Under the pieces are notes generated by a model, which was given only the letters and a program-made list of their open reading frames with translations, was not told the DNA's origin and ran no database searches. Both the position numbers and the translations under genes were made by a program. DNA of 64,000 nt from Bugula neritina (lineage: Eukaryota; Bryozoa; Gymnolaemata; Cheilostomatida; Bugulidae). Shown one piece after another: positions 2,572 to 50,900 of this stretch. Each line of letters starts with the position of its first letter. Within the stretch, counting starts at the first letter, position 1. The stretch spans positions 34,919,504-34,983,503 of the forward strand of contig OZ037765.1 of the NCBI GenBank assembly GCA_964035545.1, written 5' to 3'.

Positions 2572-2573
2572 CT

Positions 2574-2923: not shown

Positions 2924-2954
2924 TAATCAAATTACTAGCTCGTAAAGATATATT

Positions 2955-3071
<117 letters not shown>

Positions 3072-3089
3072 ACCTGGAGACCCCCAGAC

Positions 3090-5845: not shown

Positions 5846-5882
5846 TGCTTCATGTTGGTCAGGTCCCCAAATCTATGTTGCA

Positions 5883-6375: not shown

Positions 6376-6377
6376 TA

Positions 6378-7133
6378 CACAGGATAGTTAAGGGCATCCT
6401 CACTAAGAATATCATAAATTTCTCTCAAAATGTAGTTCAGGTTCTTGAATAATATTGCTCTGCGGGTGGCATGCGTGTTGCCTACTTGCAATTGTTTAGC
6501 CTAAGATTAAACTACAACCAATAAGCAGCAACCTTCATTAGGGCTGTGTTATCTATCAACATTCCATTATAGGCGCTACATAAACAAAGTACCAAGCAAG
6601 CTATTCATTGTAGTCTGTCGGCTAGCAAGCCTATAATTAGCATGTACGCGCCAATATCTTCTCATCCCTACGTGCTCATTGAAGCGTGAAGCACTGCGCG
6701 CTGCTAATTTACTATGAAAAAATATGGCAATTTCAGTGTATAAATCACCAATTTGTGGGCAATCTAGAAGAGTTATTGGAAAAAGAAAAAAACTTACCCT
6801 GGAGAAATATCTCAGGATTCCAGCAGTGCAATTTTTATTCAGATATCATGCTTTGCTGCTGAGATATTTTACTGGTACTGAAAAGTCAGCTTTTCAGGCA
6901 AAATTGGCCAAAATTGGGCAGTTTTTTGTCTATAAATTTGCAAAAAAAATGAAAATTGAAATTTCCAAAAAACTTACCCTGGAGAAAAAGAAGATCTACA
7001 GTATAGTTTTTAAATTTTGACTCTAGCACAATTAGGTGAGATTTTATTTTACTGGTACTGAATTCTTATATGATTACAATGCAAACCTCAGCAAGGTAGT
7101 TGCAGCTAAAAGGTTGCCCTTAACTATCCTGTG
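6378..7133. mobile_element. MITE with TA target duplication, nested in Gypsy I RT
   Basis: 756 bp with terminal inverted repeats CACAGGATAGTTAAGGGCA at both ends, flanked by TA on each side (6376-6377 and 7134-7135). Setting the insert and one TA aside leaves the host RT text continuous at S-G-Y-W. TA duplication and TIRs suit a Tc1/mariner-type non-autonomous element. No transposase is visible; the 98-codon open frame inside shows no recognisable domain. Confidence 0.88.
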
Positions 7134-7135
7134 TA

Positions 7136-8095
7136 GCCACTTTTCATGTCAACTATGGTAAACACTGTCATTCCACTGAAACTAAACAATATGTCTTCTA
7201 ATGTCGGAATGTGATGGTGTTCTCTCATCAAAGCCTTATTCGGTTCCTTGAGGTCCAAGCATATCCTGACACTACCATCACGCTTCTTTACCACAACCAT
7301 GCTGTTCACCCATTCCGTAGGTTGATATACTTTGACGATGATGCCATTTGCTTCCATTTTATCCAGTTTAGCCTTAACGTTTTCAACTCTGCTGAGGGGT
7401 ATATGTTTGGCTCTATTAATGACAGGCTTTACATTAGGGTAAACTCTCATAGTATGTTCACGGTCGAGGCAGCTGATCCCCTCAAAGCAGTCGGCAAATT
7501 CATCCAGGATGGCCTGAATGTTGAGATTGTCAATCCGTTTCACAATTCCTAGTTCAACGCAAGCAACCAACCCTAGAATTGGCACCACATTTGCATCGAC
7601 CAGTTCAAAGTCTAGTGTTGTCACACCATCCTTGTCTAGTCCTAGTGTAACCTTCTCACCGCTAAGTAAGATGTCACCTGAATAAGAGCAAAGTCTGGCC
7701 TCACTAGGGAGAATGTCTCCACAAAAATCTTTAGTCAGGCTTAATGGTAGTACATTAGCCTCAGCACCAGTATCTACCTTGAACCTGATATTCTTACAAT
7801 GCTGACCGCTGTACACATTATAGCTTTTAAACCAACCTTGTGGTGAATCTTCCTTATGGGAGATAAGCCTTATGAAGAGGTCATTCATCTTCATTGCTGA
7901 GTCAGATAAAATTAAATTCACTTCTTTCTTAGTACATTTACTGTGAAAGTGGTTTTTACCACCACATGCTCTACAGTCCTTTCCAAATGCTGGACATTTC
8001 CCTTTTATGTGATCAAAACCACAAAATCTGCAGTCTGTGACTTTTTTAGGTGCTGCATGGTACCGGAATTTGTCTCGGTGTAGGTCTTCCTTCAC
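7136..8095 (-). pseudogene. Gypsy I zinc knuckles, protease and RT N-part
   Basis: The minus-strand frame has two CCHC-like knuckles (CRFCGFDHIKGKC and CRACGGKNHFHSKC) and a retropepsin active site DTGAEAN. An RT N-terminal region follows with KRDGSVRICLDLKEPNK and the first catalytic aspartate in TIVDMKSGY. The MITE interrupts it at the last tyrosine. Confidence 0.85.
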
Positions 8096-8232
8096 TTTTC
8101 ACTATGGATACCAACCGCTCACCTGATATCTCTGCCAACTGACTCTTTGTAACCTCTGATGCTCGAATCAGATCTATAGCACCATTCAAACCTACAGTTT
8201 TATCTTGTAAAAGCTTCTATTTTAACCTTTGG

Positions 8233-11787: not shown

Positions 11788-12092
11788 ATGAGAATGAAGA
11801 CTATTGAATACAACTAGAACTGTAATCAGTGACTATAGAATGGGTCAACGTAAATCTCTACCTCAGCCTACACCTGCACCTCGAACTCAGCCTACACCTC
11901 CACCTAGACCTGCACCTAGACCTACCCCTGCACCTCGAACTCAGCCTACACCTCCACCTAGACCTGCACCTAGACCTACCCCTGCACCTCGAACTCAGCC
12001 TACACCTCCACCTACCCCTGCACCTAGACCTACCCCTGCACCTCAACCTCCACGTACACCTCGAACTCTACCTACACCTCGACTTCCACCAA
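11788..12092 (+). CDS. Gene A exon 2: MGQRKS start and proline-rich tract
   Basis: The acceptor TTACAG at 11787 precedes a short upstream ORF that ends in TAG before the likely start ATG at 11840. From there 84 residues run MGQRKSLPQ and then (T/R)PxP repeats built from a 54-bp DNA repeat (about 2.5 copies). It ends at a GTTAGT donor (12093), phase 1. The apparent stop TAG lies inside that donor. Gene B keeps the same start, donor and phase. G2 and S6 fit the N-myristoylation consensus; the proline tract suits SH3/WW partners. Both roles are inference. Confidence 0.6.
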
Positions 12093-15000
12093 GTTAGTAA
12101 ATCAATAACTTATACACAGTGTGTCAAATTAGTTCTGTAAGAAGTTAGTAAACACTGAGTGAGTTTCGGTGATAAGCAAAGTTTTACAGGGATTTAGCAA
12201 TTAAAGTTTCTGTCATCTTGCAGACCATTGTCTTTAATCTTCAATCTACTCAAAGAATAATATTTATGGTCTTAGAGAACCTGAGTCTAGGATTATGTTA
12301 TGCCAAGCCAGTTATTATGTATAAAGTGGTGCACACTCTGTAGGGCTGAGAACATCTTGCTGGCTATTCTCTTGAGTGAATGTCTATAATATCTCATGTC
12401 CAACCAATCAGCTTGCTTATTAGCCGCTTTCGGCCAATCACAAACTGACTTCTATAACTCAGCTTTCATTAGGAGTTGCGCTACTTTGTGTGAAAATATT
12501 ACATTCATATATATAAACTAAGATTAAAATATTATAACATGTTTTACTGGCAAGTGGTACTACATATAATCAGTTGAAATAACAAATGCATTTGAAATGT
12601 ATTTTGGAGTTATATACTCTCTCTTGTTTACTTAAACACTGTTTATAGTGTTGAGACACTCTGTTATTTTGATGTCAAAGTTATTATTTATAAAATAATG
12701 AATATTTTGTAGAGAAGTACGAGGTGTGGTTCAACACATCCAGTATAGATGGAGCTGATGATAAGTGGATGAAGAATAGGACTACATACTACACTGTAGA
12801 AGAGATCAAGAATAAAAGTAGACATCATACAGTGACTCATGTTATACTGAAGCATGACATTCCTCCAAATATCAACACACTGTTTCCTCATATCACACAT
12901 CTAGTGGTATTTGAAGTATACAGCAATGCTGACTGGACCAGGTATGATATTGTGTCTAACACATGCCGTATAAGAGAAGAAAATGAGAATTTCTTGTCAA
13001 TAGTGACTATTCATATACTGCTAGCTAGTATTTAGTGACTATTCATACTGCTAGCTAGTATTTAGTGACTATTCATACTGCTAGCTAATATTTAGTGACT
13101 ATTCATACTACTAGCTAGTATTTAGTGACTATTCATACTGTTAGCTAGTATTTAGTGACTATTCATACTGCTAGCTAGTATTTAGTGACTATTCATACTG
13201 CTAGCTAGTATTTAGTGACTATTCATACTGCTAGCTAGTATTTAGTGACTATTCATACTGCTAGCTAGTATTGAGGTTATCTTTAGAGTTATATTTGTTT
13301 TTATATCTGTATGTTATGTTACAGCATATCTTTACTGAAGAATCTTGAGGTATTGAATATATCAGATAATAACCTATCTGAAGGTCTACCTGACAATATA
13401 TTCACATCCTTACTATCATTGACAGAGTTGAACATGGAGTACTGTGTACTGTTAACTCTACCAAACAGGTGTGTATTATATTATAGTGTAGAATGATACT
13501 GTAATATATATATATAATATCTCATCAGTAACTAAGCAACTGTCTGCATACATAGCAAAGGTTTCTACAGTTACACTCAGGTTGAGGATATTCTGTTGAG
13601 ACTAGAGCTAAGCAGTCAGCGTGTAGGAATTTAAGCATTTTCCATGATATTTTTTTAATTGCATTTTTGTTGGGTAGAAGGGATAGGATTTCTACTTGAT
13701 AGCTTACCATGTGTACAGTACTATTTCCTGTGTACTCCGAAGGGTGGTTTGCCTTCTTCCATCTATAAGTACAACATGTAATTGGTTGTTAAATGCAAAC
13801 AAGTCTGACCGTTCTACCTGTCAGGGGCATGAAGTGAATATCTTTCAACCATTGGCTGGTGAGTAATATATCTGTGCATAACACAGATGTTGCAGGATTT
13901 AATTAACTTAGCCATATCTCTACACAGGGCTGTCCACCAGAAGTGGTGCTGAGCCCTCACTCTACACTCATATACCCCCTGATGGCCCTTGTGGCACATT
14001 TCTAAATATCCTGACCGTATAAAGACTAGGGAATATACACCCTGGACTTGTACATTAGCATATTATTATAAGCTGGTAAATAATGTAGGACTGTATAAAG
14101 TTGTGTTAGCCCACCTGTCAAACTCCTACCAATTTTTGGCTGTGGAAATTCTAATATACTTCTATACTGAAAGGGTCTGAGTTTGTAGTTTTTAGTCCTG
14201 TTTCTAATATTTATTATCATAGCACTCACTCTAGCACTCAATACCAACCATATAGATCTCAGGCAGATTAGAATGTTGCTGTCCTCACCATGTAACAGAT
14301 CTTTCATATCTGTATGTTATGTTACAGCATATCTTCACTGAAGAATCTTGAGGTATTGAATATATCAGGGAATAACCTATCTGAAGGTCTACCTGACAAT
14401 ATATTCGCATCCTTACTATCATTGAGAAATTTGAACATGAATCAATGTAGACTACCAACTCTACCAAACAGGTGTGTATTATATTATAGTGTAGAATGAT
14501 ACTGTAATATATATAATATCTCATCAGTAACTCAGCAACTGCATGTCTGCATACATAGCAAAAGTTTCTACAGTTACACTCAGGTTGAGGATAATCTGTT
14601 GAGACTAGAGCTAAGCTGTCAGCTTGTCAGCATTTAAGCATTTTCCATGATAATTTTTTAATTCTGTGTATTTCCCGCCTGCTTTTAGCTGTTAGTCATC
14701 AATGAAAGTGACTTGCATTTGTGTTGGTTAGAAGGGATAGGATTTCTACTTGATAGCTTACCATCTGTACAGTACTACTAATTCCTGTGTACTCTGAAAC
14801 TAGGATATTTCAGATCAGCTATCAGATTTACAAATTGTTAGTTGCTACAGAATTTGGGGTTTAGAGTTCAGACAATAGTTTGTATACAAACACTGCACCC
14901 CACGACCCCAAGCTTTGTGCTGCATTCATCAATTCCCATCAGATTTTATCCTATGCAGTTGGTGGTTGTTGAGTGCTGATTGGCTGATTTGTTCTACTTG

Positions 15001-18000
15001 TATCAAGTGCTGCAAGCCTGAATGTTTTCTCTTTTACTGGAAGATCATTTATTCAGTTTAAAAAGTTACGATTATATAAACATGAAGGCTGGTTGCCTTC
15101 TTCCATGTATAAGTACAACATATAATTGGTGGTGGAATGCAAACAAGTCTGACCCTCCCACCTGTCAGGGGCTTGAAGTGAATTTTTCAACCAATGGTTG
15201 GTGAGTAATAGCTCTGTGCATAACACGGATGTTGCAGGATTTAATTAACTTAGCCATATCTCTATACAGAGCTGGCCACTAGAAGTGGTGCTGAGCCCTC
15301 ACTCTATAACATTCATATACCCCCTGATGGCCCTTGTGACACATTTCTAAATATCCTGACTGTATAAAGACTATGGAATGTACACCCTGGGCTTGTACAT
15401 TAGCATATTATTATAAGCTGGTAAATAATGTAGGACTGTAGAAAGCTGTGTTAGCCCACCTGTCAAACTGCTACCATTTTTTGGTCGTGCAAAATCTAAT
15501 ACTTTGATACTGATAGAGTCTGAGTTTGTAGCTTTTAGTCTCGTTTCTAATATTTATTATCATAGCACTCACTCTAGCACTCAATACCAACCATATGAAA
15601 CTCAGGCAGGTTAGAATGTTGCTGTCCTCACCATGTAACAGATCTTTCATATCTGTATGTTATGTTACAGCATATCTTCACTGGAGAATCTTGAGGTATT
15701 GAATATATCAAGGAATAACCTCTCTAAAGGACTACCTGACAATATATTCACATCCTTACTATCATTGAAAGAGTTGAATATGATGAGGTGTAAACTGTCA
15801 ACTCTACCAAACAGGTGTGTATTATATTATAGTGTAGAATGGTACAGTAATATATATATATATAATAACTCATCAGTAACTCAGCAACTGTCTGCATACA
15901 TAGCAAAGGTTTCTACAGTTACACTCAAGTTGAGGATATTCTGTTGAGACTAGAGCTAAGCTATCAGCATGTCAGCATTTAAGCATTTTCCATGATAATT
16001 TTTTAATTATACATGTATTTTTACCTGCTTTTAGCATTTAGTCATTTAGGGAGACGAATGGTATTTGTGTTTGTTAGAAGGGATAGGATTTTTACTTGAT
16101 AGCTTACCATGTGTACAGTACTAATTCCTGTGTACTCTGAAGCTAGGATATTTCAGATCAGCTATCAGATTTACAAGTTGTTAGATGTTACAGAATTTGG
16201 GGTTCAGAGTTCAGTCAATATAGTTTGTATACAGACACTGCACCCCACGACCCCAAGCTTTGTGCTGCATTCATCAATTCCCATTAGATTTTATCCCATG
16301 CAGTTGGTGGTTGTTGAGTGCTGATTGGCTGAGTTGTTCCACTTGTATCACGTGCTGCAAGGCCGAATGTTTTCTCTTTTACTGGGAGTTCATCTATTCA
16401 GTTTAAAAAATTACAATTATAAACATGAAGGATGGTTTGCTTTCTTCCATCTATAAGTACAACATATATTTGGTTTTTGAATGCAAACAAGTCTGACCCT
16501 TCTACCTGTCAGGGGCTTGAAGTGAATATCTTTCAACCATTGGTTGGTGAGTAATTTCTCTGTGCATAACACAGATGTTGCAGGATTTAATTAACTTAGC
16601 CATATCTCTACACAGGACTAGCCACCAAAAATGGTGCTGAGTCCTCACTCTACACTCATGTACCCCCTGATGGCCTTTGTGACACATTTCTAAATATCCT
16701 GACTGTAAAGACTAGGGAATATACACCCTGGACTTGTACATCAGCATATTAAAAGCTGCTAAATAATGCTGGACTGTATAAAGCTGTGTTAGCCCACCTG
16801 TCAAACTGCTACCACTTTTGGTCGTGCAAAGTCTATTACGCGGTCTGAGTTTGTAGTTTTTAGTCTTGTTTCTAATGGAACTCAGGCATATTAGAATGTT
16901 GTTGCCCTCACCATGTAACAGATATTTCATACCTGTATGTTGTGTTACAGCATGTCTTCACTGAAGACTCTTGAGGTATTGAATATATCTGAAGGTCTAC
17001 CTGAAAATATATTCACATCCTTACCATCATTGAAAAGGTTGTATATGATGGACTATAAACTGTCAACTCTACCAAACAGGTGTGTATTATATTATAGTGT
17101 AGAATGATACTGTGATATATATAATATCTCATCAGTAACTCAGTTGCGTTTATACCTCTGCTGAAAAAATTTCCGAGTTTCAGTTAATAACCCTTGTCTG
17201 GGTACCCCTTTATAGTCAAACTGAAAATCGTTGAATTCATATTGATGCGGAAGCACACTTTCTAAAATTGAAATCTGACTATTTGATGCCCTTTGTAAAT
17301 ATTCTGACGGTAAAGACTAGGGAATATACACCCTGGACTTGTACATTAGCATATTATTTTAAGCTGGTAAATAATGTAGGACTGTATAAAGCTGTGTTAG
17401 CCAACCTATCAAACTGCTACCATTTTCGGCTGTGCAAATTCTATTACTTTTGTACTGATAGGGTCTGAGTTGGTAGTTTTTAGTCCCGTTTCTAATATTT
17501 ATTATCATAGCACTCACTCTAGCACTCCATACTAACCATATGAAAGTCAGGCAGATTAGAATGTTGCTGTCCTCACCATGTAACAGATATTTCATACCTG
17601 TATGTTATGTTACAGCATGTCTTCCCTGAAGAATCTTGAGGTATTGGATATATCAGGGAATAACCTATCTGAAGGTCTACCTGACAATATATTCACATCC
17701 TTACTATCATTGAGAGAGTTGTACATGAGATACTGTGAACTGTCAACTCTACCAAACAGGTATGTATTATATTATAGTGTAGAATGATGCTGTAATATAT
17801 ATAATATCTCATCAGTAACTCAGCAACTGTCTGCATACATAGCAAAGGTTACTACAGTTACACTCAGGTTGAGGATATTCTGTCAACATTTAAAATTATT
17901 CAAAGTTATTCTATAAAACTCATTTGTTAACTGGCATTTTGTAACTTAACCAGTTCTCGGTCTATGATTTGTCTATACAAGAAACTGCTTTCTTTGTTTA

Positions 18001-21000
18001 TTAGAGTTATCTTCCCTCTAATATAACCAACTTTGTCACTCACACTTCTGTTATGTCATATTGGACCTCTGCAGCTCAAACCAAACTGTCACACAACTTA
18101 TTTAAAGTTTCTCCAAATTCTCATTTACTACTTGACTACTAACTGACTCCGTTAGTTCTCAGTCTATGATTTACCAGATCTTAGGCTATAGAATGAGTTC
18201 ATACCTGTATGTTATGTTACAGCATGTCTTCACTGAAGAATCTTGAGGTATTTAATATATCAGGGAATAACCTATCTGAAGGTCTACCTGACAATATATT
18301 CACATCCTTACTATCATTGAGAGAGTTGTACATGGAGAGCTGTAAACTGCCAACTCTACCAAACAGGTGTGTATTATATTATAGTGTAGAATGATACTGT
18401 AACATATATAGTATCTCATCAGTAACTCAGCAACTGTCTGTATACATAGCAAAGGTTACTACAGTTACCCTCAGGTTGCGGATATTCTGTTAAGACTAGA
18501 GCTAAACTGTCAGCATTTAAGCCATTTTCCATGATAATTTTATATTTCTGTGTATTTTCCGCCTGCTTTTAACTGTCAGTCATCAATGAAAGCGACTTGC
18601 ATTTTTGTTGGTTAGAAGGGATAGGATTTCTACTTGATAGCTTACCATGTGTACAGTACTAATCCCTGTGTACTCTGAAGCTAGGATATTTCAGATCAGC
18701 TATCAGATTTACAAGTTGTTAGAAGCTACAGAATTTGGGGTTTAGAGTTCAGACAATAGTTTGTATACAAACACTGCACCCCACGACCCCAAGCTTTGTG
18801 CTGCATTCATCAATTCCCATCAGATTTTATCCCATGCAGTTGTTGGTTGTTGAGTGCTGATTGGCTGAGTTGTTCCACTTGCATCACGTGCTGCAAGGCC
18901 GAATGTTTTCTCTTTTACTGGAAGTTCATCTATTCAGTTTAAAAAATTACAATTATAAACACGAAAGGTGATTTGCCTTCTTCCATCTATAAGTACAACG
19001 TATAATTGGTTGTTGAATGCAAACAAGTCTAACCCTCCTACCCGTCAGGGGCTTGAAGTGAATATCTTTCAACCATTGGTTGGTGAGTAATACCTCTGTG
19101 CATAACACAGATGTTGCAGGATTGAATTAACTTAGCCATCTCTCTACACAGGACTAGCCACCAGAAGTGGTGCTGAGCCCTCACTCTACATTCATGTACC
19201 CCCTGATGGCCCTTGTAGCACATATCTAAATATCCTGACTGTAAAGATTAGGAAATGTACACCCTGGACTTGTACATTAGCATATTAATATAAGCTGGTA
19301 AATAATGTAGGACTATATAAAGCTGTGTTAGCCCACCTGTCAAACCGCTACCATTTTTCGGTCGTGCAAATTCTAGTGCTTTTTTACTGAAAGGGTCTGA
19401 GTTTGTAGTTTTTAGTCTCGTTTCTAATATTTATTATCATAGCACTCACTCTAGCACTCAATACCAACCATATGAAACTCAGGCAGGTTAGAATGTTGCT
19501 GTCCTCACCATGTAACAGATCTTTCATACCTGTATGTTATGTTACAGCATGTCTTCACTGAAGAATCTTGAGGTATTGAATATATCATGGAGTAGACTAT
19601 CTAAAGGTCTACCTGACACTATATTCATATCCTTACTATCATTGAGAGAGTTGAACATGAGGAACTGTAGACTGCCAACTCTACCAAACAGGTGTGTATT
19701 ATATTATAGTGTAGAATAATACTGTAATATATATAGTATCTCATCAGTAACTCAGCAACTGTCTGCATACATAGCAAAGGTTTCTACAGTTACACTCAAT
19801 TTGAGGATATTCTGTTGAGACTAGAGCTAAGCTGTCAGTAATTTCTATGACGTCACAGCTGCCATAAGGCTTTGGTTTACTGGTCATAAAATAATTTAAG
19901 CTTCATCAGTTTATATATTTGAATTTTTAAAAAATTGGCTCAAAGTTTGGGTATCTAACAAATTTTATCTAGCAAAAATAGAAGCAGAATAGGTGGTAGT
20001 GAAATTATCATTGGACGTCAACAATGACTCAACCATGATTTTTTACACTTTCATTCAGCTGGTAGAATTGAAAATAAAATTGTTTTCTTTTATGTTCAAG
20101 ACAAGACAACTGCATAGAAAGGAGTAGTTTTTTAGTCAATTCCATGGAAGAGTAGTGATTTGCACATTTGACAAAGTTACGTTAGCAGATTTAACTGAAT
20201 ACTGGTATTCATTTTCACCCTTACTTTTGCAAGTTATGTAGATAATACCAAATCTACTTCTAATTAGTCAAGTATTAGATACTATCCCCAGCTGCAGGCT
20301 AGCTATACAATAACTATTTGCAGTGTGCAGCAATATATATATCATTTGGTATAAACAGAAATGATTAGTAAGGTATGATTATTAGATTGTGTAAACAATG
20401 CATAGAATATACTGTGATATCTGGTAACAACATTTACCAGATGACAACTAAATATATATTTCTATATCAACAAACCCTGCCTTTGTTTGAACTCTCTATT
20501 ATTTGTGATGTTTACCAAAGCAGTTCATTCAAAGGTCAAGGACACATTGTTTAACTATAATATATAACTATTTTATAACTTTCTATATTACCCAATAATG
20601 TAATGAATATATTTGCAATGTTAACTTCTAGACATTATCATTCAACAAAGAGGGTGCTCTTATTTCTGCATGAAGTCAAATTTTTGATATAAAAGTTATC
20701 ATGTGATAGTAAAGATGCTTCAACTTGTACTGACAGTGTATAGTGTTCTGTTTACTAGCATACAGAGTCTACAGAAGTTAGAGGAGCTGGACATATCAGG
20801 TAATACCTTCACGAGTTTACCATCTCCTGTGTGCACACTGAGTAGTCTGCAGAAACTGGATATATCCTTCAACCACTCCCTGACATCCTTAAATCCTGAG
20901 ATACTACAGCTAACTCAACTTCATACACTGTATTTAGATCATTGTAATGCTCTCACATCTCCTCCACTAGAAGTATGTAAGAGAGGAGTAGATGATGTGA

Positions 21001-24000
21001 GACAATACTACACAGACTTGGCTAAAGGTGCTGGTAGAAGTCTTCCATTTGCTACTATAGCTGTACTGGGTAATATGATGGCTGGGAAGACCAGTCTAAT
21101 CAGAACATTACAGAATGCTGACAGAAAGAGAGTTCTGACCAACAGAGGGCCAGATGCTGTGAGAGATGAGACAACAAAGGTGTTTAATGTTGAAGAAGTG
21201 GAGGTGGATGGTACAGTACTCCGTGTCATCGATATGGGAGGCCAGGAGGTCTACCATATCACCTATCAACTGACACTGAGACAGAATTGTATTCCAGTCA
21301 TAGTAGTCAACATGGAACAGTATGAGGAGATCTCAAGTGATTCAACACACAGAGAAGCTGTTAGAAGATTAGCCTTTGATTACATGTCTCACCTCTACCT
21401 GGCTAACCCAACTCTTGGTGCCCCAAAACTTATCTTCACACATAAAGATAAGTTTCAAAGTGCAGAATTCCAAAAGCTTCAAAAAAATTTCCTTGGAACT
21501 TCAAATCAACTGTGTGAGGAGATGATCAGGGAAGAGAAAGCATTGGGTGGACAATTTGCTCAAATCAAACATTTCAGTGAATCAACTGAAAGAGTCTTTC
21601 TTGATGAGGACATTTATGAGGTGGGGAAAGATGATAGGTATGAAGTGTTTGACCAGATCAAGGAGTCTCTTCTTCAAACCAGTCAACATTTTGTGAAATC
21701 TTTACCTCTGGTTTGGGAGGAAGTGAATGAAAAAGTGCTGTCTATTCCCTCTGTGTACAGCACCTTTGATGAGATACTGAAATACTTACAAACCGAACTT
21801 CAAACCATTGAGTCAAGTCAGCTGGACATCATCCTCACATACATGCATGACTGTGGCAAAGTCTTGTGGTATAAAGATATCAGCTCTCTCCAGCCATACG
21901 TATTCCATAAGATTTCACAAGTCACCAAACTTCTCTGTGTTTTGTATCATCATGATCCTAACATATGGCAGAGTAGAGTTGACAAGTTCCAGCCATATTT
22001 TTCAGAGGATGGGATGTCTGTTGAAAAAGAAGACTTTGAGAGATTTGTTAATCATTTCACTGAGACTGGTTTGATGATGCAATGCCTTCTCACTCATCTG
22101 GTTAAACAAGAAACATCATTTACCAGTCTGGAAGACGTAGAAGTTGCTGTGTGCTTGCTTCGCACATTCCGTCTGTTATATGGTCCTTTACCTGGTGATT
22201 CCAAGGAGCCCTGTTTTATTGTTCCCCAGTTTGCTAACGACTTCTTTGATACCTCTTACTCTTCGCCAAAGAATATGCTCCTTCGAGTTGAAACTAAATT
22301 CAATGGTCTAGCCCTGCCACACTATGTCTATCAGCAGATGAGTGTTGGTTTGTTGGAGTTGTTTCCAGACGAGTTTGCTGTGGTTAAAGTGAGAAGAAAT
22401 GGAGCCAATGTCTATCAAGATGGTATCTACACACAGCTGGTACACGACTTTACATCTAGAAAAGTGTCACTCCACGTGTCATCTACTGCTGCCAACATCA
22501 GCAGAATGTGGGAGAGACTCATCACCACCAACAACAACATCCTCAGACATGTCCTAGAAACTTGGACAGCAAGTAGACCAGTCACTACATGCTACTGTGC
22601 TCACTGTCTTCTGCTAGGACTTCCTTGTCCTAAGAAGGTGATCAATCCTCCGTGGTGTCTTCGCTCTTTGAAACATTCCACACCACGTCCCGGACTGTGT
22701 AGTGGATCTTCAACAACTCTGTGTGGTTATGAGGAGATACCGAGTGCTCTTCTCTATCCATGTATGTTTGCATTCAGTTTGAAGTGAATATCTAGTTTTG
22801 CTCGCTTTCATCAGTCTTTCTACTATTTATGTTCTGATAGTAATAAACATATAACTTCCATGTGGTAACTGACAATGTTTTATTCTCCAGGCAGCCCTCT
22901 TTCTTCAGAAGAAGCTGATAACATAAAAAAACGCGTCACCAAACTGAGATCTGCAAGAGAAGAGACTGCTTCAACTGTCCCTGGTATGATCAGTTTTCTA
23001 TCATAAACTGTTACTGTTAGAAGTGACATCCTCTGCCTGAGCTCAGTCATATGTAAACAGCAATAGACAAGAACTCATTACACTCAGTTATATAGGACAA
23101 AATCACTCAGCTTCAATTATTAAATTTGATCTATATAATTACTGATTAAAAGTGGAAAATATGATTCTGTTCCTTGTTTACAGTTATTTGGATAATTAGT
23201 ATCTGTTACTTAGCACTGAACATATCTCCTTTTTTGTTTATTTTAGGAATAGGTGAAGATGATAACCTCAGTGAATGCTCTGATGTAGAAGAGGAAGGAT
23301 ATGCTGATTTTACTAAAGATGACCTTGAACCTTTTATATTTATGGTTGATGGCATGCAACTGAAACCTACCAACAGTGAAAGAGTTAAACAGAAGTTTGA
23401 CAACTACCAGCAGGTAAAACAAATAATATTGTCTCTGACTATTTCCTAAATCATTGAATATTTTTTCAAAAATATTGGGTTACATCACATAATTTCTAAA
23501 AATGTGATTGTTATTCTATTTATCCACTTTTAGTAAGATAAAATTGATTGGTTTACAGGTTTATGCAATGAGTGACCCTGTGAGAGGTCGTGTCATGATC
23601 ATAAACAATGAGAGATTCTTTAGAGATGATGGCAGTGAATTGACTGAGGCAACCCGAGATGGTTCATACATCGACTATGTTAACATCAAAACTCTGTTGA
23701 AAGACATGGGATTTGTTGTAGCCAATGAAGATGATCCTCTGTTTGACCTGAGTAAACAGGTTACTGTATCAACCTCTTATCTTTTTGTGTAGTTCCTTCT
23801 CCCTAGGGCCTATAGACTGTCACTAGCTATCAAATACTATCCAGTACAGAGATGTATTGTAGTCCAAGAAGTCTACACCGTGTTTACCATGGTGTTCAAA
23901 TTAATAGTTTTATAATTTTACAATTATAGTGCGTGGGTTTTATTGTGCGTAGCAGGTATCCTCTTCTAGTTAAGCAATCACTCGGGTAGTAGCCGGATAA

Positions 24001-25632
24001 TAGTCTTAATTATTTAACTCAAACACAATACAAAACATCACTCTAAATTACAATACAACAATAGCCATATAATACATGCATTCAATCTGAGTCCTCGCTC
24101 ACGACAGCCTAACTATACGCGGGAACTCTCACTTGCCAAGAGCCCGCCTTCAAGTCCTTCTCACTGGATGGTTTGCCGTGACCTTTCCCCTATAAATGTG
24201 TCCTTTAGTATTCCCCAAACAGAGGGAAGATAATTATACATTATTATATTATGCAAATCCACCACAATAGTTTTTGTCAGTGTTGATTTTTAGTTTAGCA
24301 CTACTTAATATTTTACCTTTGTGATAAATATTTCAATATAACTTTGAAGCAGCTTTGGCTTTGGCGTAGACACATTTACTTATTCAAACTTGTTTATACA
24401 CACCATTATATACCTTTATTTTGCCAGGAGATATTATCAGAAGTGATGAAGGAGACCACCCACAAAGACCACAAGGATCTTGGCATGTTCATTCTAGTCA
24501 TCATGTCACACGGAACTTCTGGAAACATCTTCCATGACAGACACTGTAAGCCTGTCAACTTGTCAGAAGTCAAAGATCTACTCTCAGCTAGTAAATTTCC
24601 TGCCATGAGAGGAAAACCCAAACTCATCATCTTCCATGCCTGTTCTGGCAGTGAGTAGTGCAGAGTTGTTCCTCATGTTACTAGAACTAGCAGTTAGATT
24701 ACATTAATTCATGTAACTGTCTCATCAAAATCCTGCAATCTTTTTGACACTGAATCAATGAATATTTGAATGGGTTTATTTAAGGTAGGCTCCACCTCAA
24801 AACCATGTTTTTTGTACATTTTAGTTTTTTGTTTAACTTGGAATTGATTAGTAGTGCTGGTGGTTTCTCCCCACCTTATTGCAGAGTACATTATATGTAT
24901 TTTATATACAGGCAGAGCTGACTTTGGTAATGCTGCACAGTCACAAAGCCTAGACACCGTCTCACCACCAACACCAACCCCTCTACCCTCATCTTCTGCA
25001 ACAGCTGGGAGTGAGTCTTCTGCAGGTCAACATGTGTCTCCAAATATTCACTTTGACAGATTCACTCACCTAGATGCTGATGACTTCTACATTGTGAAGC
25101 CAAGTACAGAAAGTTAGTGAGAAGAAAATTATATTTGAGTCGATTTACGCTTTTACAATTTGAATAAATTAAAATATTTGTTGCATGTCAATAAAATTGT
25201 TGCAAGTTTTGAATATAAAATAATTTACATAATAATTTGACATTCGTATTTAACTGCTCATTTTCATGTGTTGCAGCTTACAAGGCTGGTAGGAATGAGA
25301 ATTATGGTACCTGGTTTATCAGAATACTGGTGGCTACATTCTACAGACACAGCTGTCACAGAGATGTTACTGAGCTGTTTAGGATAGTAAGTAATTCAGT
25401 ATTACTCTTTGTATGATACTGTGGAGTGTGTTGAGTCATCAGCTTTATATTTCTCTTATATTTATACTTACAGATACAAGACAGAGTTAGACGAGTCAGT
25501 ATTGCATATTGTAAGAAGACAGGAGATGAAGCAGCTGGTGGTAATGTACCTAATTGTCAGGAATGTACTTTCACTCACCTCAGAAAACTTTTCTTTTTTC
25601 CAAAGTTCCATGGCAGACAACTCCCACAGTGA
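11840..25632 (+). CDS. Gene A: LRR-Roc-COR-caspase fusion protein (complete, 15 coding exons)
   Basis: Predicted coding exons: 11840-12092, 12713-12941, seven LRR exons (13325-13468, 14328-14471, 15671-15814, 16951-17079, 17616-17759, 18223-18366, 19548-19691), 20759-22761, 22891-22983, 23247-23413, 23559-23759, 24428-24650, 24912-25112, 25277-25386 and 25474-25632. All junctions are GT-AG, phases agree throughout, and the sum is 1544 codons including stop. Order: MG-x3-S N-terminus and proline-rich tract (1-84), unknown segment (85-160), LRRs (161 to about 570), Roc GTPase (P-loop near 596-604), COR, cysteine cluster, acidic linker (about 1190-1230), caspase (about 1240-1543). ROCO proteins are GTP-regulated switches; caspases are Asp-directed cysteine proteases. 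The protein plausibly couples ligand sensing to proteolysis in the cytosol. No signal peptide or transmembrane segment was seen. Confidence 0.85.
12713..12941 (+). CDS. Gene A exon 3: conserved pre-LRR segment
   Basis: 229 bp, entering in phase 1 and leaving in phase 2 (CCAG|GTATGA). The product has a conserved [14 protein letters not shown] block and a [24 protein letters not shown] stretch with the leucine spacing of an LRR-type repeat, so it probably caps the array. Gene B has the same length and about 85% of the residues. I do not recognise the domain. Confidence 0.75.
13004..13272 (+). repeat. 30-bp minisatellite, about 9 copies
   Basis: Unit begins AGTGACTATTCATACTGCTA and continues GCTAGTATTT. 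It lies in the intron just before the first LRR exon. The same unit is expanded to about 33 copies at the equivalent place in gene B. Confidence 0.95.
13325..13468 (+). CDS. Gene A LRR exon 1
   Basis: 144 bp, phase 2-2, encoding two 24-residue LRRs (LKNLEVLNISDNNLS.. and SLTELNMEYC..). Flanked by TATGTTACAG and AACAG|GTGTGT. Confidence 0.85.
13814..13999 (-). pseudogene. Integrase H2C2 fossil in LRR intron (copy 1)
   Basis: The minus-strand frame shows CHKGHQGV, then HHFWW and CNIC, the H2C2 zinc-binding fold and WW motif of retroelement integrases. It recurs in other LRR introns, so it travelled with the exon duplications. Confidence 0.7.
14328..14471 (+). CDS. Gene A LRR exon 2
   Basis: 144 bp, phase 2-2, two LRRs (LEVLNISGNNLSEGLP and LRNLNMNQCRLPTLP). 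Confidence 0.85.
14472..15670 (+). other. LRR intron with duplicated repeat block
   Basis: Non-coding. Contains the recurring block around 14880-14990 (CCCCACGACCCCAAGC) and a decayed antisense integrase H2C2 copy near 15165-15345. The same blocks recur in the introns around 16.2-16.7 and 18.7-19.25 kb. Confidence 0.75.
15671..15814 (+). CDS. Gene A LRR exon 3
   Basis: 144 bp, phase 2-2, two LRRs (LEVLNISRNNLSKGLP and LKELNMMRCKLSTLP). Confidence 0.85.
16502..16687 (-). pseudogene. Integrase H2C2 fossil in LRR intron (copy 2)
   Basis: Same fragment as 13814-13999, with [16 protein letters not shown] and CNIC, uninterrupted over 61 codons. Confidence 0.7.
16951..17079 (+). CDS. Gene A LRR exon 4 (15-bp in-frame deletion)
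   Basis: 129 bp instead of 144, still phase 2-2 with both splice sites. Five residues of the first LRR (the GNNLS region) are missing, so that repeat would be short. It could be skipped without a frame change. Confidence 0.7.
17616..17759 (+). CDS. Gene A LRR exon 5
   Basis: 144 bp, phase 2-2, two LRRs ([16 protein letters not shown] and [15 protein letters not shown]). The following short intron (about 460 bp) is shared with gene B LRR exons 1-2. Confidence 0.85.
18223..18366 (+). CDS. Gene A LRR exon 6
   Basis: 144 bp, phase 2-2, two LRRs (LEVFNISGNNLSEGLP and LRELYMESCKLPTLP). Confidence 0.85.
19038..19223 (-). pseudogene. Integrase H2C2 fossil in LRR intron (copy 3)
   Basis: Same antisense fragment as the copies at 13.8 and 16.5 kb, open over 61 codons ([11 protein letters not shown] .. 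CNIC). Confidence 0.7.
19548..19691 (+). CDS. Gene A LRR exon 7
   Basis: 144 bp, phase 2-2, two LRRs (LEVLNISWSRLSKGLP and LRELNMRNCRLPTLP). Confidence 0.85.
19692..20758 (+). other. Intron before the Roc-COR exon
   Basis: About 1.07 kb without coding signal. Strongly similar along its length to the equivalent gene B intron (54458-55523), including CCAAAGCAGTTCATTCAAAG. Confidence 0.8.
20759..22761 (+). CDS. Gene A Roc-COR exon (2003 bp)
   Basis: Acceptor TTTACTAG, phase 2; donor CCAT|GTATGT, phase 1. It opens with about three LRRs (LQKLEELDIS.., LQKLDIS.., LTQLHTLYL..), then the linker ..[15 protein letters not shown]. The Roc GTPase follows: G1 GNMMAGKTS, a DETTKVF threonine as candidate G2, G3 DMGGQE, G4 THKD. 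The COR domain then occupies the rest (for example [11 protein letters not shown] and LTHLVKQE). A cysteine cluster [14 protein letters not shown] lies near the end. All GTP-binding motifs are intact, so GTP binding is expected. Confidence 0.92.
22891..22983 (+). CDS. Gene A exon 9: short linker
   Basis: 93 bp, phase 1 in and out. Product contains CSPLSSEEADNIKKRV, matching ..[12 protein letters not shown] in gene B. A charged helix-like linker between COR and the caspase part. Confidence 0.7.
23247..23413 (+). CDS. Gene A exon 10: acidic linker into caspase
   Basis: 167 bp, phase 1 to 0. Starts GIGEDDNLSECSDVEEEGY, an Asp/Glu-rich stretch, and continues to LKPTNSERVKQKFDNYQQ, a caspase-entry-like segment. 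Such acidic spacers often hold caspase processing sites. Confidence 0.7.
23559..23759 (+). CDS. Gene A exon 11: caspase large-subunit N-part
   Basis: 201 bp, phase 0-0. RGRVMIINNERF is the first core beta strand of caspases (compare G-x-ALIINN-x-F), followed by the helix containing DYVNIKTLLKDMGF. Confidence 0.85.
23930..24266 (-). repeat. Solo LTR in caspase intron
   Basis: 337 bp with TG..CA ends (TGCGTGGG..CCACCACA), flanked by the 4-bp duplication ATAG (23926-23929 and 24267-24270). It shares the end CCACCACA and a block around CGGGAACTCTCA with the Gypsy II LTR, so it is a diverged relative left by LTR recombination. It lies in the intron between two large-subunit exons. Confidence 0.8.
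24428..24650 (+). CDS. Gene A exon 12: caspase catalytic exon (His and Cys)
   Basis: 223 bp, phase 0 to 1. Catalytic histidine in VIMSHG (codon 24509-24511, residue about 1341) and catalytic cysteine in IFHACSG (codon 24641-24643, residue about 1385), 44 residues apart, within caspase range. The canonical QACRG is HACSG here, so both flanking specificity residues differ. Confidence 0.9.
24912..25112 (+). CDS. Gene A exon 13: inter-subunit linker
   Basis: 201 bp, phase 1-1. A Ser/Thr/Pro-rich linker (PPTPTPLPSSSATAG) followed by HLDADDFYIVKPST, the usual segment before the small subunit. LDAD is a plausible cleavage point. The apparent stop TAG lies in the GTTAGT donor. Confidence 0.75.
25277..25632 (+). 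CDS. Gene A exons 14-15: caspase small subunit
   Basis: Exon 25277-25386 encodes YGTWFIRILVATF, matching the GSWFIQ start of the caspase small subunit. Exon 25474-25632 ends with FTHLRKLFFFPKF and a TGA stop at 25630-25632, matching the usual LxKKLYFFP end. Confidence 0.85.
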
Positions 25633-44817: not shown

Positions 44818-44968
44818 ATGGGTCAACGTAAATCTCTACCTCAGCCTACACCTACACTTAGACATAGTCCTAGACCTACCCCTGCACCTCGAACTCTACC
44901 AACACCTACACCTAGATCTCGACCTCCACCTCCACCTCCACCTCCACCTCCACCTCCACCCCCACTAA
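44818..44968 (+). CDS. Gene B exon 2: MGQRKS start and proline tract
   Basis: 50 codons plus one base, phase 1, donor GTTAGT. Same [12 protein letters not shown] start as gene A, then a run of about 14 prolines from a CCTCCA repeat. The proline part has diverged by repeat turnover while the first ten residues are unchanged. Confidence 0.6.
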
Positions 44969-47900
44969 GTTAGTAAATCAATAACTTATACACAGTGTGT
45001 CAAATTAATTCTGTAAGAAGTTAGTAAACACTGAGTGAGTTTCAGTGATAAGGAAAGTTTTACTGGTTGTGTTCAGTAACCAAAGTTTCTGTCATCTCAC
45101 AGCTACAGTACATCTTCTGTATATAAAATAGTGAACAGCTTGTGGTGTGAGTTTGTGTTGTAAACAATAATATCTCATGTCCAACCAATCAGCTTGCTTA
45201 TTAGGTGCTTTCAGCCAATCACAAACTGACTTCTATAACTCAGCTTCCATTAGGAGATGCGCTACTTTGTGTGAAAATTAGTATTACATTCATCTATATA
45301 AACTAAGATTGAAATATTATAACACGTTTTACTGGCAAGTGGTACTATATATAATCAGTTGAAGTTTCAACTGCATTTGAAATGTATTTTGGAGTTATAA
45401 ACTCTCCACGTTTACTTCAATACTGTTTATAGTGTTGAGACACTCTGTTATTTGATGTCAAAGTTATTATTTATAAAGTGGTGAATATTTTATAGAGGAG
45501 TACTGGATGTGGTTCAACACATCCAGTATAGATGGAGCTGATGATAAGTGGATAAAGAATGATACTACATCCTACACTATAGAAGAGATCAAGAAGAAAA
45601 GTAGACATCACACAGTGACTCATGTTGTACTGAAGCATGACATTCCTCCAAATATCAACACACTGTTTCCTCATCTCACACATCTAAGGTTATCTGAAGT
45701 ATACAGCAATGCTGACTGGACCAGGTATGATATTGTGTCTAACACATCCAGTATAAGAGAAAAAACTGAGAATTTTTTGTTAGTGGTGGAGTTTGAACCT
45801 TTACAGTAGTAAATACCCCCCTATCCACTTTACCAGCAGACTATACTTAAATATTAAGTGAATACACACTACACAGAGTACTCCCACCTATTCACACTGC
45901 TAGCTAGTATTTAGTGACTATTCATACTGCTAGCTAGTATTTAGTGACTATTCATACTGTTAGCTAGTATTTAGTGACTATTCATACTGCTAACTAGTAT
46001 TTAGTGACTATTCATACTGCTAGCTAGTATTTAGTGACTATTCATACTGCTAGCTAGTATTTAGTGACTATTCATACTGTTAGCTAGTATTTAGTGACTA
46101 TTCATACTGCTAACTAGTATTTAGTGACTATTCATACTGCTAGCTAGTATTTAGTGACTATTCATACTGCTAGCTAGTATTTAGTGACTATTCATACTGC
46201 TAGCTAGTATTTAGTGACTATTCATACTGCTAGCTAGTATTTAGTGACTATTCATACTGCTAACTAGTATTTAGTGACTATTCATACTGCTAGCTAGTAT
46301 TTAGTGACTATTCATACTGCCAGCTAGTATTTAGTGACTATTCATACTGCCAACTAGTATTTAGTGACTATTCATACTGCCAGCTAGTATTTAGTGACTA
46401 TTCATACTGCCAACTAGTATTTAGTGACTATTCATACTGCTAGCTAGTGTTTAGTGACTATTCATACTGTTAGCTAGTATTTAGTGACTATTCATACTGC
46501 TAGCTAGTATTTAGTGACTATTCATACTGCTAGCTAGTAATTAGTGACTATTCATACTGCTAGCTAGTATTTAGTGACTATTCACACTGCTAGCTTGTAT
46601 TTAATGACTATTCATACTGTTAGCTAGTATTTAGTGACTATTCATACTGATAGCTAGTATTTAGTGACTTTTTTTACTGCTAGCTAGTATTTAGTGACTA
46701 TTCATACTGCTAGCTGGTGTTTAGTGACTATTCATACTGTTAGCTAGTATTTAGTGACTATTCATACTGCTAGCTAGTATTTAGTGACTATTCATACTGC
46801 TAGCTAGTATTTAGTGACTATTCATACTGCTAGCTAGTATTTAGTGACTATTCATACTGCTAGCTAGTATTTAGTGACTATGTAAACTGTGAATTCTACC
46901 AAACAGGTATGTATTATATTATAGTGTAGAATGATACTGTAATATATAATTATTGTGATAGTTTTGTGGGTTATGAATGAAACTAGTGCTTTACATGCTT
47001 GTTATGAGAAACAAGGCGAGAAATAAGGTAAAAGGTAAGGTAGCTTTATTGTAGTCCGAATGATCCAGTAGTCTGTGTCCAGCGAGCTCCAGTAGTAGAC
47101 TGAATCTACACTGAAACTCGCTGGCTTTTATATACACACAGGACAAAGACACTCCTTTGTTTGCCGAGATCGGAGGCCCGAAATGCCGAATATCGGCACT
47201 TCGGGAATCCGAAATGCCGAATTGGCATCTCGGCACTTCGGTAGTCCGATATGCCGAAAATCGGCATATCGGTGTTTCGGAGGACCGAAGTGCCGATCTC
47301 GGCAACCAAGGACACACACACAACATAAATTTACCACACACACCCCCATCGGAAAGCATGCTTTCTGATAAAGAGACGTACACAAACATCAATCACACAA
47401 ACAGAATATGACACGACAATAAAACACACAGTTGACAAGTAACACACAAAAAAAAACAATATACGGTAGCCATGCAGTGATACCAAAAAAAAAACAAAGA
47501 GAATTGTGCACACATAAAAATAACAGAGCAACGGATAAGTACATAACACTACATGAAAGAATTTACACACACATAAAAAGAGCAAAGAAAATAAGATCAA
47601 GAAAAAAAACAAATATACAAACAGTCTCATCGGCGGTCTCCAGATCGGCCCCGCTACAGGCAGCTCACACGTCTCCTGAGTTGTCCCAACTCCTCCTCGT
47701 ACCTGCGGAGCCGCCTGCGTAAGTGTTGTACCTTTTCCTCCAACTGGGCCGATGTCTGGTGTCTGGGGCGGTCGGTGGTACTGTGGCTGGTACGTCGCCT
47801 CTGCTTCTCGCCGGCCGCCGAGGGCCGGGGGCCCAGGTCCGATGAATCGGTCCTGGCGCCTGATCCGACCCGTGCCAGCACGACCCGAAGTGGTTGGGTG

Positions 47901-50900
47901 GCTGCCGGTTGGGGTGTCGCGGCAGGCTCCCCTTCTTCTTCACGAACAGGCCTACACACGGGGAATCCCAGGGCGAGAGCAGCCCGTTTATGGGGATCGG
48001 CCACGTGTGGCAGTACCAGATCCCAAAATTCGGGAAAGGAGGCCTGGTCTACAGCGAACGTGTAGCTCGTGTGGCAGTGAGCTATGCGCTGATGCCTCAG
48101 CACATAGTCCCTCTGGTAAGAGATTTTGCCACATGGGCAAAGCAGGTTGATGTAGTGCTGTGGGGCGTGTACACGCAACCGCCGTGCAGAGGAGAACTTC
48201 CTCTGGCACTGGTGGCAGATGCGGTTGCCCGGCTCACCGCAAGCTTCACCAATCCTAAGATTGGTGGGTCCAGTCACCCAATACTGGCGGGCGACCAGGA
48301 CCCGAGGCAGGGCCAGTATTGGGGAGTCATCTTCTTCGGCTGCGAGGTGGTCGCCGTGTAGGATGCCCTGCTCCTTCCCGGCCGTGAGCTGAAGCTCGAC
48401 CGGTTTGGGGTCAGGGCCACTAACGATGGCGGAACACACCTCTGTGGAGGAGGTGACGTCCTGCTGGCTGTGAGAAGCCGAAGCAGGAGCCGGTGGGAAA
48501 GGGGAGTCGGACTGACTGGCCTCCTCGGTGTCCATACGCTCCTCTAGAACAGATAGTAGAGGCTGTGATAAGCCGGTCTCACTATCGCCGAAATTCGGCA
48601 TAGGTGTGTATGGGGCCAAATTAAAAACCGGGGGCCAAGGGGTATCGCAGAAATTGACTGAGCCCACGTCATGATTCAATAAAGTATCAATGACACAGTC
48701 ATCTCCGAGATCCATCTCGGCCTCCGGTTCTAAGTAATCAGACCCAAGTAAGTCTAATAAAGACCAGTCTACACTAGTTTGACTAGACTCCGTAACTGGA
48801 GGATCTAATCTAAATGAAATACCTGATTGCGTGTCTGGTAAAGTAATTCTCATAGCTGCTGATAGCGTCTGGAGAACAGTATTTAAATCAAACTTGGGGG
48901 TATCAGGATCAGAATTCAACTTAAGCTGTAACTGACGTGCTAGCTGGGTGAAATCAGAACTAGAAATGGCCGAACCTCGTGCTTCAGAATTATTACCTGC
49001 CAAAGCCCGAGTCGCGTGGCCCGTGGGAATTTCCACCGGATTTCGAAAAGACAACTCGCGTGATCGAATGTCTTCCAAAATTCGGTCGGCCATTTCTTCT
49101 TCTTGGTGGAATTCTCCAGGGTGATGGAGGGAATTTCCAACCAAGATTAGGTGGTCGTCAGTACGGGGGGGTTGTCCTCATGAGGGGGCCACTCTAGGTG
49201 CCCTACAGCATAGTCTGCCAGATACCTGGGGGGTCTTCTTGATCGCTGGCTCCTCTCAATTGGAGCAGGCACCGGTGGTGTTCGTGGCTCCTGAGCTACC
49301 CTAGTAGGGGGATCTCCGCCTTCACCCAACACGGGGGTGGGGGTGTCCTCCTTCAGGGAGGGTGGTGGTCCTAGGGCTTGCTGCTGTTCCTGTTCCCGCT
49401 CCTCTCTCTGCTGTCGCTCTAGCTGCTCTATCAAGGCGGCCTGCTCCTGGTCTGCCTCTCTAGGAACCATAATTTCCACCTCTCGGGGCTGGGTGGCCCG
49501 TCCTCGACGGTTGGGCTGGCGGTGGGGCTCCAGGAGGGGTGGAGCCTGACCCACCGCGTCTGGGCTAGCATGATAAGGTTTCAGGCGCTGCTCGCTCTAG
49601 ACGGAGATTTGTCCAGAGCGCTCCACACGGTACGTGTGGTTGGGCAGCACCTTCACTACGCAGTAGGGACCGACGAACTTGGGCTGAAGCTTAGCCGACT
49701 GTCCGCCTCGCCTACGGTAGCTCACCATCCAGACCCAGTCTCCCACCTGGTACAACGGGGGCTCTTTTGAGTCCTCTGTGCAGGTCTGCCACTGCTGGGT
49801 ACGCAGCGCACCGTGAGCTTTGCCCATGATGTCTATCAGACCCTCCACATATTCGTGTACCGGTGACTCGGGGGCAGGAACATGGTATGTCAGGTGTTCC
49901 GGGACCCGCGTCTCTCGGCCTAGCATCAAGAAGTTTGGAGTCTCCTGCGTGGCGGAGTGTGGTGTGCCACGGTAAGCCCGCATGATTTGCGGCAGCACCA
50001 CGTCCCATTTTTCCTGACCTCGACCAAGGAGCAGGCTCCTGAGCGCGTCACCCAACATCCTGTTGTTCCGCTCGACGACTTCGTTCCCTTGCGGGTGATA
50101 TGGGGTGGTCCGACTCTGGTTCACCCCCCATATCCGGCAGAGGTCTCCCATGAGCTGGGACTGGAACTGGGCACCCTGGTCCGTATGTATCTGCTTGGGC
50201 AAACCAAGGTAACAGAAAACATGTTGGTCCAGGGTCCGGGGCAACGTGGGGGCGGTTGCGTCTGAAATAGCCAGAGCATCCGCCCACCGGGTAAAGTGGT
50301 CCGTGAGCACCAGTATTCAGGTGTTCCCTCTGGCGGATAACGGCATAGGCCTGACGAGGTCTACCGCCACTACTTGCCACGGTCGTTCAGCGTACAGCCG
50401 GCGTCGACCAGTGGTTTCCGTGGGGCGGCCATGCTTGCTAGCTTGGCAGACCTCGCATTGCCGTACCCGCAGTCGTACGTCCCGAGTCATTCCAGGCCAA
50501 TACCAACGCAGCCGCAGACACCTGATGACTCGACTGACTCCAGAATGAGCCTGCTTATGGGTGTCCCAGATCAGTTCCCGCCGGAGGGCGCGTGGACAGA
50601 CGACGCGGTCCCGCTCCTGCTGACGGTTGTCCGCTGCTAACGTTATCATCAGGAGGCCATCAGGACTGACCTTGAGGGCATCCCAGCGACGACAGAGGAG
50701 TTGGAACTCAACACCTCCCTGCCGCTGCTGTTCCTTGCTAGGTCGTCGGCCCTCCTTCTTGGCCCGGAAGATGTCCGCTACCGCGCCGGGTAGCGTCTCC
50801 TGGAGTCGGCACAGCTCCTTGACGCTCTGGTGCAGAGTGGGGTTGGCGTGGAGCGCCTGGACACCGTCCTGGTGGGTTTCGGTCCGAAGATGGACGTGCT

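Follow-up and report, generated by a model that had tools for sequence, protein, structure and literature searches.

A 64,000-nucleotide stretch of the genome of Bugula neritina (GenBank assembly GCA_964035545.1, contig OZ037765.1, positions 34,919,504 to 34,983,503; hereafter, the window) contains, at positions 11840–25632 of its plus strand, a gene in which leucine-rich repeats (LRRs), a Roc-COR GTPase module and a caspase appear to be joined. We consider it very probable, from the comparisons described below, that this gene belongs to a large family of receptors for immunity or allorecognition, in which sensor, switch and protease would be carried by a single chain. The original prediction for this DNA had recognized the fusion and treated it as a lone gene; the observation was confirmed, with the correction that many related genes share the layout.

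Exon joining gives a single gene of 17 exons that encodes 1543 amino acid residues, with the stop codon ending at 25632. The introns are all GT-AG and all in phase, in agreement with the span and the phase-consistent exons first proposed (Table 1). The order of the parts is as follows: an N-terminal tail, the LRR exons, Roc-COR, a linker of 86 residues and a complete caspase. Seven LRR exons, six of 144 nucleotides and one of 129, each with phase 2 at both ends, precede the large exon of 2003 nucleotides that holds the last LRRs, Roc and COR. Since these LRR cassettes are phase-symmetric, they could be spliced in any number. The linker is encoded by two exons and the caspase by five, and the internal borders of these exons were reproduced by a custom-written spliced aligner with the linker-plus-caspase protein as the query. 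The second exon, at 12713–12941, has no clear Pfam match.

The joined linker and caspase match Peptidase_C14 (PF00656) with an E value of 3.1e-27 and 96.2 bits over positions 1–227 of the 233 of the profile, which covers both p20 and p10. The motifs listed in the original prediction were all found: GNMMAGKTS, DMGGQ and THKD, which are the intact G1, G3 and G4 of Roc, and SHG, HACSG, GTWFIR and LRKLFFFP of the caspase. The SHG and HACSG motifs align to the catalytic His and Cys of caspase-3, which is the solved chain scoring best against the caspase part in the PDB, with CED-3 also listed. In the same alignment, both S1-pocket arginines, which serve the specificity for Asp at P1, are kept.

The Roc domain matches PF08477 with 30.5 bits (cut-off 27), and the Pfam match to COR-A is below threshold, 17.1 bits versus a cut-off of 35.3. 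An AlphaFold2 model of the Roc-COR exon (mean predicted local distance difference test score, pLDDT, 70.2) matches LRRK1, LRRK2 and the Roco protein of C. tepidum across both Roc and COR; single-domain small GTPases score close to the Roco chains in this search, as expected for a G domain. The model places a COR domain directly after Roc. No Pfam match to NACHT or NB-ARC occurs in the window exons scanned, and none to a protein kinase in these exons or in the linker-caspase part. The linker has no Pfam match to a death fold (CARD, DED or death domain); the structural model that covers this region, that of a relative from Watersipora subatra (the fusion P0126), has a mean pLDDT of 45.8.

The same layout recurs across the genome. 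Among the 28 caspase loci for which several kb of upstream sequence were at hand, Roc-COR precedes the caspase on the same strand in 26, as follows. All 20 loci similar to or near that of the window have it, 19 directly and one, L017, in adjoining DNA (L037). Six of the eight loci sampled from other contigs (C2 and C4 to C9) have it as well, and the other two have ankyrin repeats instead. A second set of eight loci was taken with 1.5-kb flanks, which are too short to decide on a fusion; a Roc-COR piece is present in three (L004, L007 and L008), and none is found within the flank in five. Spliced models of the 20 loci contain no frameshift. In 17, the model extends from Roc-COR through the whole small subunit, that of L022 beginning at query residue 44. 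Of the incomplete ones, L017 ends before Roc-COR, L020 is without a small subunit in the stretch examined and L021 stops 34 residues before the end of the query. All 19 spliced models that include the intron behind the Roc-COR exon have it in phase 1, the aligner having been fitted to the same query.

Starting from the other end of the fusion, the 216-Mb genome holds at least 66 near-full-length open matches to the Roc-COR exon (66 were scored out of 176 candidates), 64 of them free of in-frame stops. When the closest listed caspase exon was sought up to 10 kb away, it was downstream on the same strand for 56 of the 66, at 728 to 7243 bases (median 1.4 kb), and upstream or on the opposite strand for none; the caspase set used for this pairing consisted of the 150 listed matches of one search and part of the matches of a second. 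The other 10 have no listed caspase, and the two of these that were examined both have caspase exons downstream. The clustered listed matches amount to at least about 125 caspase loci in the genome.

Three protein searches were made over 5.8 billion sequences. Residues 580–1543 gave three matches, all from Watersipora subatra, and the linker-plus-caspase query gave six among proteins of 849–2700 residues, again all from Watersipora. A profile of five fusions gave 151 matches, and the best 120, which were listed, comprise a Watersipora fusion, Roc-COR-exon frames of metagenome contigs, two MFHAS1-like proteins of Watersipora, and bacterial and other LRR proteins; P0003 is the only carrier of PF00656 among those listed, and more distant animals may be missed, as this search scored the 7992 candidates sharing most words. 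The metagenome matches reach 87% identity and consist of no more than the Roc-COR exon, as gene prediction that is blind to introns would give. Several Watersipora relatives are named MFHAS1-like in their source. The nearest named relatives that carry a caspase are all bryozoan, which speaks against a sponge as the source of the DNA. All eight predicted Watersipora proteins with a C14 domain have Roc-COR, whole or partial, upstream of it, a figure that is not unbiased, since the linker or Roc-COR was part of each query and long proteins were favoured.

Motifs were scanned in 30 sequences, namely the 20 loci, two genes of the window and these eight Watersipora proteins. The His and Cys motifs are present in 29, the thirtieth being the incomplete L017. 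A [DE]xSD pattern is present in 26; in P0002 the match falls in the LRRs, and the linker of this protein reads ELSDV. Within the linker, S-x-x-S-D is invariant in all eight Watersipora proteins and could be a candidate site of self-cleavage or phosphorylation. A separate set of invariant residues lies near the end of the Roc-COR exon, where C613, C616, C655 and C668 (a C-x-x-C and then two single cysteines) are kept in both alignments and could act as metal ligands.

Selection on the modules was measured as the ratio of nonsynonymous to synonymous substitution rates (dN/dS) within each of the types A, B and C into which the loci fall. For the 11 type-A loci, each module rests on 51 to 55 of the 55 pairs, a pair being left out where dS was undefined or no higher than 0.02. 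The median dN/dS is lowest in p10 (0.08), followed by Roc (0.15), p20 (0.17), COR (0.19) and the linker (0.31); the last LRRs and the intersubunit loop reach 0.50 and 0.59. Three type-B pairs gave higher values in a like order of constraint, 0.31 for Roc, 0.37 for COR, 0.50 for the linker, 0.22 for p20 and 0.14 for p10. The one type-C pair gave 0.32 for Roc, 0.25 for p20 and 0.39 for p10, the values for COR and linker being unusable because their borders are misplaced. The aligner is guided by its query, and the loop between the subunits is unreliable in the models of types B and C. Purifying selection acts on Roc, COR, linker and caspase.

The LRR cassettes were compared by the corresponding ratio of proportions of differences (pN/pS). 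It is 2.35 at eight concave-face sites, chosen after the sequences were seen, 0.51 at the other 39 sites, a framework value that is lowered by the conserved ends required in the search pattern (the eight sites were left unconstrained by it), and 1.21 over all 47 sites, the pairs compared not being independent. The eight positions, in two LRR units, were set from the general LRR pattern. The comparison used 32 exons of 144 nucleotides out of 35 found by pattern in the window and in L009–L028; three exons of other lengths were dropped, and LRR exons outside the pattern, such as that at 13325–13468, are uncounted.

Modules also appear to have been exchanged between types. A second gene of the family lies in the window, with its N-terminus from 44818, an exon at about 45495–45722, at least three LRR exons (at 52890, 53495 and 54314) and a Roc-COR exon at about 55524–57526 that is 89% identical to that of the first gene. 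Its caspase is of another type, with 45% identity over the catalytic exon. In COR, residues 400–560 of the second gene and of L020 are 88–91% identical to three type-A genes and 69–71% identical to three type-B genes. Their caspases are 92–97% identical to type B and 37–47% identical to type A. Judged by these identities, both are chimeric, with a type-A COR and a type-B caspase. Residues 560–668 of the Roc-COR exon are uninformative between the types; since the linker of the second gene is already type B, the switch lies between residue 560 and the linker. The first linker piece of L020 is diverged from both types. The arrangement is consistent with recombination in, or close to, the intron that separates Roc-COR from the linker.

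We infer an immune role from this evolutionary pattern. It is quite improbable that the fusion is real but serves development or housekeeping, such as the turnover of polypides or metamorphosis, and has no part in the recognition of pathogens or non-self: caspases do act in animal development generally, but tens of copies, an excess of change at the LRR concave sites and the exchange of caspase types fit recognition better.

We propose the following mechanism for a recognition receptor of this kind. The N-terminal tail would possibly be lipid-anchored, as the MGQRKS start of both window genes, like MGCSLS of P0001 and MGAKSS of P0123, fits the N-myristoylation consensus. The variable LRRs would act as the sensor, the ligand being a pathogen product or non-self tissue. 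Roc-COR would serve as GTPase switch and dimerisation module, with the ligand on the LRRs shifting its nucleotide or dimer state. Initiator caspases are activated by proximity, and the change of state in Roc-COR would bring two caspase domains together and so activate them. The activated caspases may release themselves by cutting the linker at its conserved [DE]xSD motif; the released caspases would cleave host substrates, leading to cell death or the onset of inflammation. According to PMC6337361, the C. tepidum Roco protein is chiefly a monomer when GTP is bound and a dimer in another state.

If this proposal is right, these genes encode an animal receptor class with detection, switching and killing in one chain, which would bypass the adaptor step of inflammasomes and apoptosomes. 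A Roc-COR switch of the LRRK2 type could then drive a caspase, and since the protease is in the same chain, cleavage would be a simple readout of the state of Roc-COR. The family would also supply candidate genes for bryozoan immunity and colony allorecognition.

Several observations weigh against this account. In type A, the caspase dS is lower than that of Roc-COR, which suggests gene conversion and weakens the counting of copies as independent. An in-frame stop is present in one of the 20 spliced models (L009) and in two of the 66 Roc-COR exons. A start of the form MG-x-x-x-S is found in two of the eight Watersipora models, the other six starting otherwise, several seemingly within the LRRs. 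Not every caspase of the genome need be fused to Roc-COR, to judge from the ankyrin repeats at two of the eight sampled loci and from the locus L001, whose 1.5-kb flanks are without Roc-COR.

The activity of the protease may also vary. Type-B caspases have EVCSG at the catalytic Cys motif, and the second S1 arginine is missing in three type-B loci, whose small subunit reads by eye VHPVYG where type A has RNENYG; the same arginine is a lysine in P0001 and P0002 of Watersipora. Because of the EVCSG motif and the missing arginine in the three type-B loci with a p10, some type-B caspases may be weak or altered proteases. A real fusion in which the caspase is a structural or dominant-negative pseudo-protease, signalling by scaffolding, would account for EVCSG in place of QACxG and for the lost arginine, and inactive caspase domains are described for bacterial conflict systems in a portion of PMC7159879; it is nevertheless very unlikely for the family, given the near-universal His and Cys motifs noted above and the fact that p20 and p10 are under the strongest constraint in type A.

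The remaining points concern the junction between Roc-COR and caspase. The Roc-COR exon of the window gene reads through its donor to a stop 26 nucleotides on, and an AATAAA lies within the intron that follows, so a Roc-COR-only transcript from this gene is possible. Among the Watersipora models, P0036 and P0040 show Roc-COR and lack a caspase. Intronic polyadenylation as a conserved feature after the Roc-COR exon was considered and rejected, AATAAA being present in this intron at 5 of 21 loci only. In the frame of linker and caspase, no Met occurs before residue 63 of the linker; therefore, a separate caspase start would lose most of the conserved linker, unless there are further exons. That a ROCO gene and a caspase gene merely lie side by side and were duplicated as a pair, perhaps co-regulated and not in one transcript, is the least credible alternative, since what speaks for it, the read-through stop and AATAAA of the window copy and the two caspase-less models, stands against linker exons conserved at the ratio given above, the constant phase-1 junction, the cost of a separate start and the single predicted Watersipora proteins with this layout (prediction method not stated). 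Comparative evidence of this kind, together with the downstream caspase exons at 56 of the 66 Roc-COR exons, supports the original claim that LRRs, Roc-COR and caspase form one gene.

A broader proposal concerns the bryozoan repertoire as a whole. In an exon-wise search of the 216-Mb genome, NACHT gave one match, above the cut-off and over only 45 of 167 positions, and NB-ARC gave none; CARD gave 4, Death 11 and TIR 9 partial matches. These NLR and adaptor domains are best called few rather than absent, because intron-split domains can be missed and no control animal genome was included. It is tempting to propose that, for recognition inside the cell, bryozoans came to rely on a repertoire of LRR-Roc-COR-caspase receptors where other animals use NACHT NLRs, with at least 66 Roc-COR exons, LRR cassettes diversifying at the binding face and caspase types swapped by recombination; we regard this as evenly balanced between true and false.

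Table 1. Exons of the LRR-Roc-COR-caspase gene, and the second gene of the family, in window coordinates
Feature	Position	Strand	Remarks
Exon 1: ATG, MGQRKS N-terminus, proline-rich tail	11840..12092	+	
Exon 2: N-terminal part preceding the LRRs	12713..12941	+	self-match 98.7%; match in second gene 82%
LRR exon 1	13325..13468	+	144 nt, phase 2-2
LRR exon 2	14328..14471	+	144 nt, phase 2-2
LRR exon 3	15671..15814	+	144 nt, phase 2-2
LRR exon 4	16951..17079	+	129 nt, phase 2-2
LRR exon 5	17616..17759	+	144 nt, phase 2-2
LRR exon 6	18223..18366	+	144 nt, phase 2-2
LRR exon 7	19548..19691	+	144 nt, phase 2-2
Large exon: last LRRs, Roc GTPase, COR	20759..22761	+	ends at phase-1 intron
Linker exon 1	22891..22983	+	
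Linker exon 2	23247..23413	+	acidic ECSDVEEEGY motif
Caspase exon 1: start of large subunit	23559..23759	+	TRDGSYIDY with first S1-pocket Arg
Caspase exon 2: catalytic residues	24428..24650	+	SHG histidine and HACSG cysteine
Caspase exon 3: intersubunit loop, start of small subunit	24912..25112	+	
Caspase exon 4	25277..25386	+	GRNENYGTWFIR, second S1-pocket Arg
Caspase exon 5: end of small subunit	25474..25632	+	LRKLFFFP, stop
Second family gene, to linker and caspase large-subunit exons	44818..58786	+	small-subunit exons past window end (L038)

Two further features of the window were noted by eye. The intron that precedes LRR exon 1 has a 30-nucleotide unit in tandem copies at about 13007–13273. 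Retroelement-like open reading frames (reverse transcriptase, integrase-like) occur in the window at 424–2571 on the plus strand and at 4490–8098, 33883–36381, 40980–42973, 49597–52465 and 61755–63266 on the minus strand, some of them within introns of the second gene. Elsewhere in the genome, L001 (C4:5000994-5001812, minus strand) has a complete caspase domain in a single open frame, with no Roc-COR in its 1.5-kb flanks, and is perhaps a free-standing caspase. The two ankyrin loci have their parts on the same strand: in L029 (C2:30531000-30536500) an ankyrin frame at 481–3504 (1008 residues) is followed by caspase exons at 4119–4322 and 4531–4785, and in L035 (C9:9353000-9358500) ankyrin frames at 1259–2368 and 2287–2910 are followed by caspase exons at 3927–4124 and 4617–5366. 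The genome thus probably has another kind of fusion between sensor and caspase, with ankyrin repeats as the sensor.

The logic of an LRR sensor, a nucleotide switch and a caspase output is familiar from the NLR inflammasome and caspase-1. The inflammasome differs in that its switch is a STAND ATPase and its caspase is a separate protein recruited via CARD or PYD, whereas the bryozoan gene has Roc-COR and the caspase in-chain. The LRR-Roc-COR core is shared with MFHAS1, of group 1 of the Roco proteins, and with LRRK1 and LRRK2, none of which has a caspase in the account of PMC6337361, LRRK1 and LRRK2 carrying a kinase. That review, in the text available, divides the Roco family into three groups, none with a caspase, a word absent from it. 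The original prediction placed a caspase fusion outside the standard ROCO architectures; bacterial LRR-Roc-COR-caspase proteins (PMC8195603) and the LRRs-caspase hybrids of amphioxus (PMC2575513), both already published, correct this view. In the sponge NLR architectures of PMC12909245, CASc and COR are in the figure key and "roco" is not in the part available; "roco" is likewise not in PMC8260672, nor "bryozoa" in PMC11508797. A limited search of the open-licence literature on bryozoans or on Roc-COR with caspase found no description of an LRR-Roc-COR-caspase family.

Other eukaryotic systems share parts of the design. The brown algal LRR-ROC-COR candidate immune receptors, as described in sections of PMC11378527, are alike in having LRR-Roc-COR with LRR exons that are uniformly of phase 2 and are shuffled, and in showing diversifying selection. 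They differ in their 72-nucleotide LRR exons and in mostly lacking an effector domain; a peptidase domain (IPR009003), which is not a caspase, forms the C-terminus of three members, and splice variants are documented there. The ROCO-TIR proteins of Aplysia, another marine invertebrate, also join Roc-COR to an immune signalling domain, with a TIR in place of the caspase and few genes, according to extracts of PMC9334734. In the LRRs-caspase and TNFR-caspase hybrids of amphioxus (Zhang et al. 2008, PMC2575513), an animal receptor part is likewise joined straight to a caspase without an adaptor; Roc-COR is unmentioned in the description at hand.

The same order of parts is known from bacteria. 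In the LRR-AP-GTPase(Roc)-COR proteins described in parts of Kaur et al. 2021 (PMC8195603), rapidly evolving LRRs, Roc and COR are followed by a C-terminal effector, which can be a caspase; there are several paralogues per genome, and a counter-invader role has been proposed. The bryozoan genes appear to share this layout of LRR, Roc, COR and C-terminal effector, a likeness of layout only. In that account, no fewer than 24 different domains can occupy the effector position in bacteria, whereas in the bryozoan the order is constant in tens of copies and the protease matches caspase-3 and CED-3. A bacterial transfer of the whole fusion was considered and set aside, caspase-3 being the best PDB match of a caspase part that lies in five exons. 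With the bacterial architecture and the amphioxus hybrids already published, what appears new here is an animal version with Roc-COR at the scale of a family, together with its pattern of selection.

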